Shown here: positions 58,202-63,677 of the stretch, piece by piece
How the letters are laid out: each line of letters starts with the position of its first letter
How positions within the stretch are numbered: the first letter of the stretch is position 1
IMG/VR virus record: IMGVR_UViG_3300021962_000051
Coordinates: 1-64,000 of that record
Reading direction: 5' to 3' (one strand)
Origin: a virus
Length of the DNA stretch: 64,000 bases
Notes under the pieces: generated by a model
What the model was told of the DNA's origin: nothing
What the model saw: only the letters and a program-made list of their open reading frames with translations
Database searches by the model: none
Position numbers and translations under genes: made by a program

Positions 58202-58588
58202 ATGGCTAGTCCCTTTGACTTCCTTAATAGTATAAACTCTACCAAGAAAAACCTATTAGAAGAGGATCCACTTGCAATAAAAAACTATACACCATTTATG
58301 GTGAATAGAGGATTATCTTATTTCCCAGATACAGTATTATATGCGAACGAAATGAATCGCTTTATCGAGATTCCTCGTGAATGGCAATTTTCATTTTTAC
58401 TAAATACTATTACCAGAAGAAAACGATATTCGAAATGGTTCAAAGCTGATGCCAAAACGAAAGAAATTGAACTGGTGATGGAATACTATGGGTATTCCAC
58501 CGAGAAAGCAAGGAATGTTGTTGATTTGTTAACTGAAGATCAATTGCTTGCTATTGAAGAAAAACTTAATAAAGGTGGAAAGAAATAA
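58202..58588 (+). CDS. 62: Clamp loader small subunit gp62
   Basis: A 128-residue protein, shorter than T4 gp62 (187), with the conserved YTPFMVNRGLSYFPDTVLYANEMN and RRKRYSKWFK blocks. The shortened N-terminus is typical of marine T4-like phages. It lies between 44 and regA, with GGGGAG ahead of its ATG. Confidence 0.88.
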   Translation: MASPFDFLNSINSTKKNLLEEDPLAIKNYTPFMVNRGLSYFPDTVLYANEMNRFIEIPREWQFSFLLNTITRRKRYSKWFKADAKTKEIELVMEYYGYSTEKARNVVDLLTEDQLLAIEEKLNKGGKK

Positions 58589-58589
58589 A

Positions 58590-59006
58590 ATGTCTAATGA
58601 GATGATCTATTACGATTGGACTCCTGAGTCCATGCTTGAAGTGAGTCTACCTGAACCAGATAATTTTCTAAAGGTCAGAGAAACACTAACAAGAATTGGC
58701 ATTGCGTCAAGAACCGATAAGAAACTTTATCAATCTTGTCACATTTTGCATAAACAAGGACGATACTTCATCGTTCATTTTAAAGAACTATTTGCTCTTG
58801 ATGGTAAAGAGTCAAATATTACTATAAATGATGTTGAACGTCGTAACACTATTGCTAATCTTCTGTCAGATTGGAATCTATTAAAAGTTATGGATTCTAC
58901 TAAGGCAGAACCTAAAGCATCCCTATCACAAATCAAAGTGTTAACGCACAAAGAAAAAGGTGAGTGGGAACTTGTACCGAAATATAATATCGGTAAAAAG
59001 AAGTAA
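58590..59006 (+). CDS. regA: Translational repressor RegA
   Basis: A 138-residue protein (T4 RegA is 122). The start at 58590, with AAAGGTGG upstream, avoids a 40-base overlap with gp62. After a ~15-residue extension (MSNEMIYYDWTPESM) it is close to T4 RegA: NFLKVRETLTRIGIASRTDKKLYQSCHILHKQGRYFIVHFKELFALDGK, DWNLLKVM, and the C-terminal GEWELVPKYNIGKK. It binds ribosome-binding regions of early mRNAs and represses their translation. Confidence 0.95.
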   Translation: MSNEMIYYDWTPESMLEVSLPEPDNFLKVRETLTRIGIASRTDKKLYQSCHILHKQGRYFIVHFKELFALDGKESNITINDVERRNTIANLLSDWNLLKVMDSTKAEPKASLSQIKVLTHKEKGEWELVPKYNIGKKK

Positions 59007-59155
59007 AACCATTAGGTGAAACTAATGAATTCCCTTAGTTGTTTTTGAGGGTTGTTGTACTAAGTATTAATGTACTCATTTTGAGTGCGCTCCTCAATCG
59101 AGATCTGCTTCGGCTCTCTCGAGATATGTGAGAAACATTTTTAGGAGATAATACC
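59007..59155 (+). promoter_or_regulatory. Structured leader of the PqqA-like gene
   Basis: A non-coding stretch with several predicted hairpins: CATTAG/CTAATG (59010-59027); CCCTTA/TGAGGG (from 59032); GTACTCA/TGAGTGC with loop TTT (59072-59088, one G-U); and TCGAGA/TCTCGA enclosing a GC-TTCG-GC tip (59098-59122). The TGAG of the third arm can instead pair with CTCAA at 59093-59097, so two forms exclude each other. It ends in a strong ribosome site. Could be a regulatory leader; not proven. No promoter is obvious. Confidence 0.5.
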
Positions 59156-59227
59156 ATGTGGACAAAACCAACAGCAACTGAAATGCGTTTCGGATTTGAA
59201 ATTACTATGTACGTATGTAACAAGTAA
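59156..59227 (+). CDS. pqqA: PqqA-like precursor peptide (23 residues)
   Basis: A 23-codon gene (59156-59227) with a very good ribosome site, AGGAGA at 59143-59148, 7 bases before ATG. The peptide starts MWTKP and has R11-F-G13-F-E15-I-T-M-Y19, ending V-C-N-K. Length, the M-W-x-K-P start, R-x-G-x-E-x-T-x-Y and the near-terminal N match the enterobacterial form of PqqA from memory. PqqA is the ribosomal precursor of pyrroloquinoline quinone; PqqE links its Glu and Tyr in E-x-x-x-Y. Both residues are in place here (Glu15, Tyr19). No other pqq gene is in the window, so maturation would rely on the host. The alternative is a chance look-alike short peptide. Confidence 0.75.
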   Translation: MWTKPTATEMRFGFEITMYVCNK

Positions 59228-59233
59228 TTACAA

Positions 59234-59254
59234 GGTATTCCAAAAACGAATACC
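59234..59254 (+). repeat. Perfect hairpin after the PqqA-like gene
   Basis: GGTATTC (59234-59240) and GAATACC (59248-59254), 7-bp perfect stem with 7-base loop, 6 bases after the stop codon. No T-run, so probably an RNA-stabilising or regulatory hairpin rather than a terminator. Confidence 0.6.
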
Positions 59255-59275
59255 AACCGAGCGAAAAAAGAATAC

Positions 59276-59313
59276 TTTAGGGACTTGACATTTTATGAAG
59301 AGTCCCTAAATAT
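59276..59313 (+). promoter_or_regulatory. 10-bp inverted repeat overlapping a late promoter motif
   Basis: TTTAGGGACT (59276-59285) and AGTCCCTAAA (59301-59310) are perfect arms around 15 bases. The right arm overlaps CTAAATAT (59306-59313), a late -10 look-alike. A DNA operator for a late promoter or an RNA hairpin are both possible. Confidence 0.5.
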
Positions 59314-59316
59314 ACC

Positions 59317-59344
59317 TGTATAGAATATGATTGTATTCTATGCA
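59317..59344 (+). repeat. 11-bp hairpin
   Basis: TGTATAGAATA (59317-59327) pairs with TATTCTATGCA (59334-59344), one G-U, 6-base loop. It is part of a series of hairpins between the PqqA-like gene and the 63-residue gene. The 182-base stretch 59228-59409 has no supported gene. Confidence 0.6.
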
Positions 59345-59348
59345 AACC

Positions 59349-59375
59349 CCAGATGCCCTTGTGGATCTGGTTTTT
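59349..59375 (+). terminator. Possible terminator before the 63-residue gene
   Basis: CCAGAT (59349-59354) / ATCTGG (59365-59370), 10-base loop, then five T. A short stem, so a weak or conditional terminator. Confidence 0.5.
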
Positions 59376-59409
59376 ATAAACAAACCTTGCTTAATAAGGA
59401 GGCAATACT

Positions 59410-59601
59410 ATGTTGAACTATATCAACAACACTCTGGACAGCATTTCAACTGCTGCCAAAAAATTTGTCGAAACATTTACTTTCGACAGCAAACTAAAAT
59501 CAATCGCCCACGATCAGATCGATGCTAATACTGCATATGCGAAAGCTACTGCACGTGTTACCGATACAGTTGTATCTGAATTTGCGAAAGGAGTAAAATA
59601 A
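59410..59601 (+). CDS. Small helical protein, unknown
   Basis: A 63-residue protein with a near-perfect ribosome site AAGGAGG 7 bases upstream. It is amphipathic and helical throughout (DSISTAAKKFVETFTFDSKLKSIAHDQIDANTAYAKATARVTDTVVSEFAKGVK), with spaced Ala/Thr/Phe of the kind seen in phasin-like or surface-binding helices; that likeness is weak. One base separates it from hsp20, so the two are likely co-expressed and may act together. Confidence 0.65.
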   Translation: MLNYINNTLDSISTAAKKFVETFTFDSKLKSIAHDQIDANTAYAKATARVTDTVVSEFAKGVK

Positions 59602-59602
59602 T

Positions 59603-60046
59603 ATGACACTCCCTAGCATTTTTGGAAACTTCAAAGACTTTGATCGAGTATGGGTTGGATTTGATGAGCAATTAGAAAGAATGCACGAGATGCATGATAT
59701 GATTGCTAAAAACATTCCCAACTATCCACCTTATAATCTTAAGAAAGTGGATGAAAACAAATACGTCATCGAGATGGCAGTAGCTGGCTTTGCAAAAAGC
59801 GACATCGAAGTAACAATCGATGATGGCAAACTGGTCATCGAAGGTAAAGTAAAAGAAGACACTGAGGACAAAAAAGATGAACTATTCCTATTTCAAGGTC
59901 TAGCAAATCGTGCGTTCAAACGTGCCTTTACATTATCTGATCACATCGAGATCAATAATGCAGAATATCTAAATGGTATTCTAAAAGTAGTCTTGGAAAA
60001 AGTAATTCCAGAACACAAAAAACCTAAGAAGATCGACGTTAAGTAA
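59603..60046 (+). CDS. hsp20: Small heat-shock protein (Hsp20/alpha-crystallin)
   Basis: A 147-residue protein. An N-terminal IbpA-like arm (IFGNFKDFDRVWVGFDEQLERM) precedes the alpha-crystallin domain from ~residue 45 (PPYNLKKVDENKYVIEMAVAGFAKSDIEVTIDDGKLVIEGK...FKRAFTLSDHIEINNAEYLNGILKVVLEKVIPEHKKPKKI). The G-I-L-x-V signature is present. A holdase chaperone, common in T4-like marine phages between the replication genes, perhaps aiding capsid or scaffold folding. A strong terminator follows. Confidence 0.95.
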   Translation: MTLPSIFGNFKDFDRVWVGFDEQLERMHEMHDMIAKNIPNYPPYNLKKVDENKYVIEMAVAGFAKSDIEVTIDDGKLVIEGKVKEDTEDKKDELFLFQGLANRAFKRAFTLSDHIEINNAEYLNGILKVVLEKVIPEHKKPKKIDVK

Positions 60047-61159: not shown

Positions 61160-61190
61160 ATATTATTAATTTATGGTTGGAGGAAGTTCT

Positions 61191-63677
61191 TTGTCGTTTT
61201 ATACTAATGTTCACCAGTGGGGTAACACTTTGCTGGTTCGATCGATCGTCAATGGTCGTCACAAACTTGATAAGATTAACTTCAAACCATCTGTTTGGAC
61301 TACACAAGGCAAAGGTGATACCGAATACAAAACACTTGATGGTCGTCCTTGTTATGAGATTGAAATAGACTCTATCAAAGAGGCACGTGACTTTGTTGAA
61401 CGTTACAAAGACGTAGCTGGATTCGAAATCCATGGTCAATTAAACTGGATGTATCAGTGGCTGTGGAAACAGTATCCATCTGACATTCAATGGGATATGG
61501 ATCAGATCCGTATCTATTCTCTCGATATCGAGACTTCTTCAGAAAATGGCTTTCCGTCTGTCGAGTTAGCAAATGAAGAAGTCCTTCTTATTTCCATTCA
61601 AAACTATAACACCAAAGAAATCCTAACTTGGGGTACTCGTCCATACACTGGCGATGCCACCAACTTCACATTTAAAGAATTCAAAAAAGAATCAGATATG
61701 CTAATCGACTTTGTTGATTGGTGGAAGAAGAACACACCTGACGTTGTTACAGGTTGGAATATTAACTTCTTCGATATCCCATTCTTGTATCGTCGTATCG
61801 CTAGAGTGATTGGCGAAGATTACGCTAAACAATTAAGTCCTTGGAAGATTACCAAAGAACGTGAGATCTTTGTTCGTGGTAACAAAGAGTTTGCTTATGA
61901 TATCGCTGGAGTAAGTCAGCTTGACTTCCTAGATCTTTATAAGAAATATACTTATACAATGCAAGAGTCTTATCGTCTTGACAATATCGCTAAGGTTGAG
62001 TTGGGCGAAGAGAAATTAGATCATACTGAATACGCAACGTTCCAGGAATTCTATCAAAACAATTGGAATAAGTTTGTTGAGTATAACGTTCACGACGTTG
62101 TGTTGGTTGACAAACTCGAAGATAAAATGCGATTGATTGAACTTCAATTGACTATGGCGTATGGTGGTAAGATTAATTATGAAGATGTATTCTCACAAGT
62201 TAGAATGTGGGATATGCTTGTTCATAATCACTTACGTGAAGACAATATCATTATCCCTCCGAAAAAATCTAATAGCAAATCCTCTCAATATGAGGGTGCT
62301 TATGTAAAAGATCCATTGGTTGGTATGCATAAGTGGATTGCTTCATTTGACTTGAACTCTCTATATCCACATTTGATTATGCAATATAATATCTCACCTG
62401 AAACTCTTTTGCCTTATGGTGAAAAGTCTGGTGTTGAACATTACCTACGTAACAAAGCAGAACCACAAACTGATGTAGCTGTTGCTGCAAATGGTAGTTG
62501 TTATCGAAAAGATAAGATTGGTGTATTCCCTAAGATTATGGAAGATCTTTATCGTGAGCGAACAGTAGCGAAAAAAGAAATGCTTGCTGCTGAACAACAG
62601 TATCAGAATACAAAAGATCCTGCGTATAAAAAGATTATCTCTCGAAAGAACAATCTACAAATGGCGATGAAGATCGCATTGAACTCTGCTTATGGTGCAA
62701 TGGGTAATGAATGGTTCCGATACTTTGATATTCGTATGGCTGAAGCAATTACAGTTTCTGGTCAGTTATCCATTCGTTGGATTCACGATAAGATGAATGA
62801 GTATCTTAATAAGATTATCGGAACGACTGGCGTAGATTATATTATTGCTGTTGATACCGATTCAATTTATGTAACGTTTGAAAAACTAATTGATAAAGTA
62901 TTTACGGAAGAACAACAAAAAGATACAGCAAAGGTTATTCGTTTTATGGATAAGATTTGCGAAGAGAAGTTTCAACCATTCATTGATGATTGTTATGTTG
63001 ATCTCGCAAAACGTATGAATGCGTTTGATCAAAAGATGAATATGAAACGAGAAGTATTGGCTGACAAAGGTATCTGGACTGCCAAGAAACGATATGTTCT
63101 TTCAGTGCATAACTCTGAGGGTGTTCAATACGCTGAACCAAAATTAAAAGTAATGGGATTGGAGATGATTAAATCTTCAACTCCTCAAGCAATTCGTGAA
63201 GCATTGCGACATGCTTTACCAGTTATTCTCCATAAAACTCAATCAGATCTTTACTCCTTTATTAATGAGTTTCGTGAGAAGTATGATACCTTATCGGTCG
63301 AGGACATTGCGTTTCCTAGATCGGTAAATGGTATCAAGACGTATGGTGATCCTTCACACATTTATACTAAAGGAACACCATTCCATTGTCGTGGTGCATT
63401 AGTTTATAATTATCATCTTAAAGATAAAAAATTAACTAATCGTTATCCATTGATTAAAGAGGGCGAAAAGATTAAGTATGTATTCTTGAAAGTCCCTAAC
63501 ACTGTGCAAGAAAACGTCATTTCTTTCATATCTGAATTACCGAAAGAACTGGATCTTCACAAATACATAGACTATGATATGCAATTCGAGAAGTCTTTTC
63601 TAGATGCTTTACAAATCGTTGTCCATCCATTAGGTTGGAAGGTAAGGGAAACAGCTAGTCTTGAAGACTTCTTCTAA
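61191..63677 (+). CDS. 43: DNA polymerase gp43 (family B)
   Basis: An 828-residue protein (T4 gp43 is 898). The TTG at 61191 is preferred: TTGGAGGAAG sits 5-14 bases upstream and the peptide begins MSFYTNVHQWGN, like T4. 3'-5' exonuclease: SLDIETSS (Asp112, Glu114) and FDIPFLYRRI. Polymerase: motif A SFDLNSLYPH (Asp387), motif B KIALNSAYGAMGN (from Lys494), motif C AVDTDSIYV (Asp555, Asp557). It is intact, with no intein or split visible. It would work with gp45, gp44 and gp62 encoded just upstream. Confidence 0.97.
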   Translation: MSFYTNVHQWGNTLLVRSIVNGRHKLDKINFKPSVWTTQGKGDTEYKTLDGRPCYEIEIDSIKEARDFVERYKDVAGFEIHGQLNWMYQWLWKQYPSDIQWDMDQIRIYSLDIETSSENGFPSVELANEEVLLISIQNYNTKEILTWGTRPYTGDATNFTFKEFKKESDMLIDFVDWWKKNTPDVVTGWNINFFDIPFLYRRIARVIGEDYAKQLSPWKITKEREIFVRGNKEFAYDIAGVSQLDFLDLYKKYTYTMQESYRLDNIAKVELGEEKLDHTEYATFQEFYQNNWNKFVEYNVHDVVLVDKLEDKMRLIELQLTMAYGGKINYEDVFSQVRMWDMLVHNHLREDNIIIPPKKSNSKSSQYEGAYVKDPLVGMHKWIASFDLNSLYPHLIMQYNISPETLLPYGEKSGVEHYLRNKAEPQTDVAVAANGSCYRKDKIGVFPKIMEDLYRERTVAKKEMLAAEQQYQNTKDPAYKKIISRKNNLQMAMKIALNSAYGAMGNEWFRYFDIRMAEAITVSGQLSIRWIHDKMNEYLNKIIGTTGVDYIIAVDTDSIYVTFEKLIDKVFTEEQQKDTAKVIRFMDKICEEKFQPFIDDCYVDLAKRMNAFDQKMNMKREVLADKGIWTAKKRYVLSVHNSEGVQYAEPKLKVMGLEMIKSSTPQAIREALRHALPVILHKTQSDLYSFINEFREKYDTLSVEDIAFPRSVNGIKTYGDPSHIYTKGTPFHCRGALVYNYHLKDKKLTNRYPLIKEGEKIKYVFLKVPNTVQENVISFISELPKELDLHKYIDYDMQFEKSFLDALQIVVHPLGWKVRETASLEDFF

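Follow-up and report, generated by a model that had tools for sequence, protein, structure and literature searches.

The PQQ precursor gene pqqA in a T4-like virus and in phages of methylotrophs

In surface waters, the methylotrophs of the OM43 and LD28 groups are important methanol oxidisers with abundant phages. In the family Methylophilaceae, the XoxF methanol dehydrogenase and PQQ synthesis belong to the core genes, and pqqA is already known to outnumber the other pqq genes (PMC4109929). PqqA is the peptide from which the redox cofactor PQQ is made; PqqE cross-links its Glu and Tyr residues, and because PqqA is a substrate and not a catalyst, one peptide is consumed per PQQ (PMC10906245). 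A phage-borne pqqA was described by Coutinho et al. 2020 in one T4-like population from Lake Baikal, VP_266, with Methylophilaceae as the predicted host; the authors proposed a boost of PQQ for methanol oxidation, a function identical to the one favored here, and stated that the cultured phage P19250A encodes none of their methylotrophy genes (PMC7678222). A 2026 reservoir study also names pqqA among virus genes (PMC13188868). Here, we analyzed a pqqA gene in a 64,000-nucleotide stretch (the window) of a 99,168-base IMG/VR virus record and compared it with copies in cultured and uncultured phages and in bacteria.

A pqqA gene in a T4-type replication cluster

The sequence-only reading of the window had pointed to a short PqqA-like frame with a good ribosome site in a T4-like phage, with Glu and Tyr at positions 15 and 19, and had proposed a search against the family models. 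All of these elements were borne out. The frame (59156..59227, plus strand, stop codon included) encodes 23 residues, MWTKPTATEMRFGFEITMYVCNK, and is preceded by the Shine-Dalgarno sequence AGGAG (59143..59147, plus strand) with an 8-base spacer to the ATG at 59156; the codons of Glu15 (59198..59200) and Tyr19 (59210..59212), the two PqqE cross-link partners, are on the same strand. The peptide scored 40.4 bits against Pfam PF08042 (E=2.7e-10; cut-off 21.1) and 43.9 bits against the NCBIfam equivalog model TIGR02107 (E=1.4e-11; cut-off 20), i.e. about twice the cut-off in both cases, while PHROGs contained no family matching it. A degenerate PqqA pattern matched once in the window and not at all in 100 dinucleotide shuffles, and this match is the only one in the entire record. 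Thus, the peptide has the family score, the E-x-x-x-Y pair and the form of a short free peptide with its own ribosome site, and we conclude that the frame is a genuine PqqA gene and not a chance open reading frame.

The surrounding genes form a replication cluster of T4 type (gp45, gp44, gp62, regA, pqqA, a 63-aa ORF, hsp20 and gp43, in this order), which establishes the T4-like setting and places pqqA inside a phage genome, with regA upstream and hsp20 and gp43 downstream. The upstream neighbor encodes a RegA-like translational repressor (58548..59006, plus strand; Pfam PF01818, E=1.5e-44; PHROG 242); its frame is listed from a TTG at 58548, and the real start is probably further downstream. 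Between regA and pqqA lies a leader of 149 bases (59007..59155, plus strand) with possible hairpins, including a stem with a UUCG loop. Its fold has a z-score of -2.15, with equal stability in 5/200 shuffles; it matched no Rfam family, and its sequence is not visibly conserved among relatives. Downstream, the 63-aa ORF (59410..59601, plus strand) has no assigned function, and comparable small ORFs are present here in some relatives. It is followed by hsp20 (59603..60046, plus strand; Pfam PF00011, E=3e-19; PHROG 432) and by the gene for a T4-type DNA polymerase gp43 (61173..63677, plus strand), which is ~53% identical to cyanophage gp43 and for which the comparison gave no close named isolate. 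We also searched the record itself, which is possibly incomplete, for genes of PQQ-repeat proteins or PQQ-dependent dehydrogenases and for a radical SAM protein, and found none; nor did we find a methanol dehydrogenase gene in it. Because neither PQQ-repeat nor radical SAM proteins were found, pqqA is apparently carried without the other genes of the pathway.

In the gap after pqqA (59228-59409), several inverted repeats are visible by eye, and the Shine-Dalgarno region CCTTGCTTAATAAGGAG ahead of the 63-aa ORF could pair with itself. In many T4-like relatives, a conserved structured RNA of ~110–150 bases immediately precedes either hsp20 or the small ORF ahead of it (e.g. L355:4641-4774, L330:4644-4776 and L349:4796-4932, among the contigs L298-L375) and ends in a near-invariant CTCGCTTAATAGGAG. 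Covariation in this RNA is strong, with 18 pairs, 97.7% of cells paired and 9 pairs changed on both sides, giving a covariation score of 0.411 vs. 0.169 for shuffled alignments. No Rfam family reached the gathering score for nine loci, and no sensible family was obtained at E<=10 for one member. The RNA occurs with and without pqqA, and we rejected it as an element of pqqA; it belongs to the leader of the downstream gene and is possibly a new cis-acting leader. It was sought in the present record and not found; the gap at 59228-59409 is possibly a diverged version of it.

Selection, gain and loss at the regA–hsp20 site

The sequence-only reading had further proposed to examine whether the frame and the Glu15/Tyr19 pair are conserved in related phages, with change biased towards synonymous sites. 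For a sample chosen without regard to pqqA, we used 80 T4-like IMG/VR contigs fetched by RegA and 79–89% identical in RegA. The gene lies in the regA–hsp20 gap in 24 of the 80 contigs, with 59–67 bits against a profile built from phage copies, and no pqqA-like sequence is present in the examined stretch of the other 56, this absence concerning the regA–hsp20 site only; decayed intermediates were not found among the 80 contigs. Because 56 of these close relatives lack pqqA at the site, not all T4-like relatives need it. All 24 copies are intact, have 23 or 24 residues and a Shine-Dalgarno motif, and keep both Glu15 and Tyr19. Among the 22 distinct sequences given by these copies and the window, pS is 0.67 and pN 0.12, with a pN/pS ratio of 0.18 (codon bootstrap 0.08–0.30), and residues W2, P5, M10-E15 and T17-Y19 are invariant while most of their codons vary. 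Copies selected by pattern gave a pN/pS of 0.20; because such codon statistics are biased by the pattern, they are superseded by those of the regA-selected sample. A second pattern, which leaves positions Glu15, Thr17 and Tyr19 free, matched 125 loci, and all three residues are kept in 125/125. In addition, the length from Trp2 to the end is identical in 141 of 142 distinct phage versions, nearly all of which have 23 residues, and a Shine-Dalgarno-like motif precedes 160/160 phage copies. We conclude that pqqA is under purifying selection and is not recent debris; both expected signs, the conserved frame and residue pair and the excess of synonymous change, were thus found in relatives chosen independently of the gene.

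In a phylogeny built from RegA, gp62 and gp44, in which 17 rows had been chosen for having pqqA, the presence of the gene requires 13 changes, nine of them forced by well-supported branches, vs. ~31 when presence is shuffled. Among close neighbors, L349 has pqqA and L355, L330 and L333 do not, the gene and its leader being present or absent between conserved flanks. These distributions argue for repeated gain and loss of pqqA at one fixed site.

Occurrence in cultured methylophages, uncultured lineages and hosts

Among 50,697 phage records searched with PqqA probes, nine genomes of phages of Methylophilales/Methylophilaceae matched: P19250A, Venkman, MEP301, MEP401, MEP402 and four Melnitz phages. 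These are all of the cultured methylophages that we met in the collection, and they cover every OM43 isolate named in PMC10580990. Beyond these, the probes hit a podovirus from spring water, two Acinetobacter contigs that had been mis-filed and a single chance match, so that among sequenced phages pqqA is nearly exclusive to those with Methylophilales hosts. When run separately, the peptides of P19250A, Venkman, MEP301, MEP402 and Melnitz-1 each passed TIGR02107. In P19250A, the unannotated gene lies at KX815270.1 28085-28153 (L005:3001-3069), and its peptide and the commonest one in Methylophilaceae share 100% identity; P19250A therefore does encode pqqA, which corrects the statement in PMC7678222. 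None of the nine genomes has pqqA annotated, and in Melnitz-1 (L003:3961-4056) and the podovirus ctXG6705 (L007:2067-2195) an antisense 'hypothetical protein' is annotated over the real gene. The isolate papers (PMC9004378, PMC8024684, PMC8163748 and PMC10580990) do not mention pqqA; the missing annotation concealed from them the potential supply of PqqA by these phages.

With regard to the Acinetobacter matches, the record 'Acinetobacter phage MD-2021a' (L008; CAKLQF020000010.1) is mis-filed bacterial DNA, in which pqqA, pqqB, pqqC, pqqD and a radical SAM gene follow each other consecutively. A second Acinetobacter record, CAKLQH020000055.1, has a matching pqqA.

Among uncultured phages, the degenerate PqqA pattern matched at least 120 IMG/VR stretches from many lineages, which by gene content fall into approximately ten larger groups and several singletons with differing neighbors. 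In the largest group, pqqA follows the gene of the major head protein on the same strand in 17/23 contigs, an arrangement suggesting that expression of the peptide is strong and late. Group 1 members with pqqA directly behind the major head protein gene include L014, L024, L032, L043 and L060. In the T4-like group, the gene follows regA in 13/21, and in two further groups it is mostly on the strand opposite to both neighbors, e.g. beside an endolysin-like gene. These varied places and strands point to repeated acquisition and self-contained expression. Upstream of phage pqqA, a shared sigma-70 promoter was not enriched (mean 9.09 vs. 9.04 in shuffles); downstream of many copies there is a hairpin resembling a terminator, with a T run.

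On the host side, the cellular matches listed for the pattern MWTxPxATEMRFGF are Methylophilaceae or MAGs with coarser labels (e.g. Betaproteobacteria). Of 150 Methylophilaceae genomes, 149 have pqqA, with a median of four copies and up to 12, and streamlined 1.3-Mb genomes often still keep three; pqqE, the only gene for a Pqq enzyme examined, is present in 141/150 and as a single copy in 136 of these 141. The host PqqE asked for by the sequence-only reading is therefore present in most genomes of the presumed host family. Some phage peptides are identical to host peptides among 130 Methylophilaceae copies compared, while neither the exact peptide of the window nor the phage peptides ending in EITMYIANR occur among these 130. 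Because such endings were not seen in the 130 copies, the phages that carry them may have other hosts. For the present record, the peptide and the relatives lead us to infer a methylotroph host.

Proposed role of phage PqqA and comparison with known systems

We assign a probability of about 0.82 to the reading that phage-borne pqqA is an auxiliary metabolic gene whose product the host enzymes PqqB-E would convert to PQQ for methanol dehydrogenase. The phage would make the PqqA peptide during infection, host PqqD and PqqE would cross-link Glu15 to Tyr19, host proteases would excise the cross-linked piece, and host PqqB and PqqC would complete PQQ, which would activate the host methanol dehydrogenase so that methanol oxidation keeps supplying energy. 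If host genes are blocked or degraded by the phage, the PqqB-E enzymes would persist while the flow of PqqA is lost, and the substrate would run short first; a gene of 72 bases would then suffice to sustain PQQ synthesis. That only pqqA is carried would be explained by the consumption of one PqqA per PQQ while PqqB-E act repeatedly, and the multiple pqqA copies of the hosts agree with a limiting dosage of the precursor. A result cited in PMC7936290 agrees with this as well: in Gluconobacter, overexpression of pqqA by itself reportedly increased PQQ. In the data cited there, PQQ rose far more with the complete set of pqq genes than with pqqAB only, and thus the substrate is not the sole limit. 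The laboratory medium for OM43 contains added PQQ (PMC9004378), and any benefit of phage pqqA would therefore be masked in culture. Overall, the family score, the conservation of the gene and the presence of PqqE in the presumed host family support the suggestion of the sequence-only reading that the phage supplies precursor to boost host PQQ.

Phage PqqA could also aid PQQ synthesis for a purpose other than methanol oxidation, such as protection from oxidative stress or another quinoprotein, given that several enzymes use PQQ and that the record has no methanol dehydrogenase gene. The core status of XoxF and PQQ synthesis in the host family (PMC4109929) and the related Baikal methylophage populations that carry methanol dehydrogenase, one of them with pqqA (PMC7678222), make this improbable. 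A decoy that occupies PqqD/PqqE and lowers host PQQ, e.g. to shift metabolism, would be in line with the general use of small peptides as inhibitors by phages and with a peptide that stands alone, no pathway enzymes having been found in the record. However, a decoy would tolerate or even favor the loss of the cross-linked residues, which 125/125 and 24/24 copies retain, and the P19250A peptide is the same as the commonest host peptide; we regard a decoy as very unlikely. Similarly small is the chance that the PqqA scaffold is reused and host PqqE makes from it a modified peptide other than PQQ, i.e. a signal, toxin or regulator. PqqE is one of the SPASM radical SAM enzymes, whose relatives yield many peptide products, yet most of PqqA is conserved, including the leader part, and it is often identical to host PqqA; there is no phage-specific tail, the length being 23 residues in nearly all versions, and the genes adjacent to pqqA, most of which encode unknown proteins, include no recognizable companion for modification or export. 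Because conservation extends beyond E-x-x-x-Y, the borrowing of the cross-linking fold, which the sequence-only reading had offered as its second option, received no support. Finally, the idea that the frame arose by chance, through misassembly or from host DNA filed as viral, as might be suspected from the very short ORF and the two matching 'Acinetobacter phage' records, one of which was examined and is bacterial DNA, is practically eliminated by scores at twice the curated cut-offs, the same position in independent contigs, the presence of pqqA in complete genomes of cultured phages and the purifying selection on it; host contamination was rejected except for those Acinetobacter records.

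Returning to PqqA as a supplied precursor of PQQ, we lean towards a broader proposal, held with distinctly less confidence: methylophages of unrelated lineages may have converged several times on this consumable template, and nearly every Methylophilales phage may need pqqA, as the precursor would run out once host expression stops, which would make this 72-base gene a near-universal and diagnostic one that gene callers have missed. If phages routinely supply PqqA, infection would directly support methanol oxidation. Pairs of phage and host already exist (H5P1 with Venkman and Melnitz, HTCC2181 with MEP301, and FZCC0133 with MEP401), and the PqqA peptide provides an inexpensive sequence marker of methylotroph phages.

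Compared with bacterial PqqA (PF08042/TIGR02107, including the multi-copy pqqA of Methylophilaceae), the phage gene shares the length, the M-W-x-x-P start and the R-F-G-F-E-(V/I)-T-M-Y core but lies in a phage genome among phage neighbors with no adjacent pqqBCDE. Like the auxiliary genes of marine T4-like phages (hsp20, here a near neighbor, phoH, mazG and the photosynthesis genes of cyanophages), it is a host-type gene linked to host physiology; unlike them, it encodes a precursor that is consumed rather than an enzyme, a chaperone or a structural subunit, and is thus a clear case of an auxiliary gene for a consumed substrate. The present record resembles VP_266 in being T4-like, in its predicted Methylophilaceae host and in its PqqA gene; in VP_266, however, pqqA is accompanied by methanol dehydrogenase whereas here it is alone, and that population was described once, from metagenomes, whereas we find the gene to be widespread. 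Judged against the open-licence literature in PubMed Central, phage pqqA was already known and is more widespread than reported, and what is new here is its breadth, its repeated acquisition and loss at one fixed position, the selection on its peptide and its unnoticed presence in cultured methylophages.
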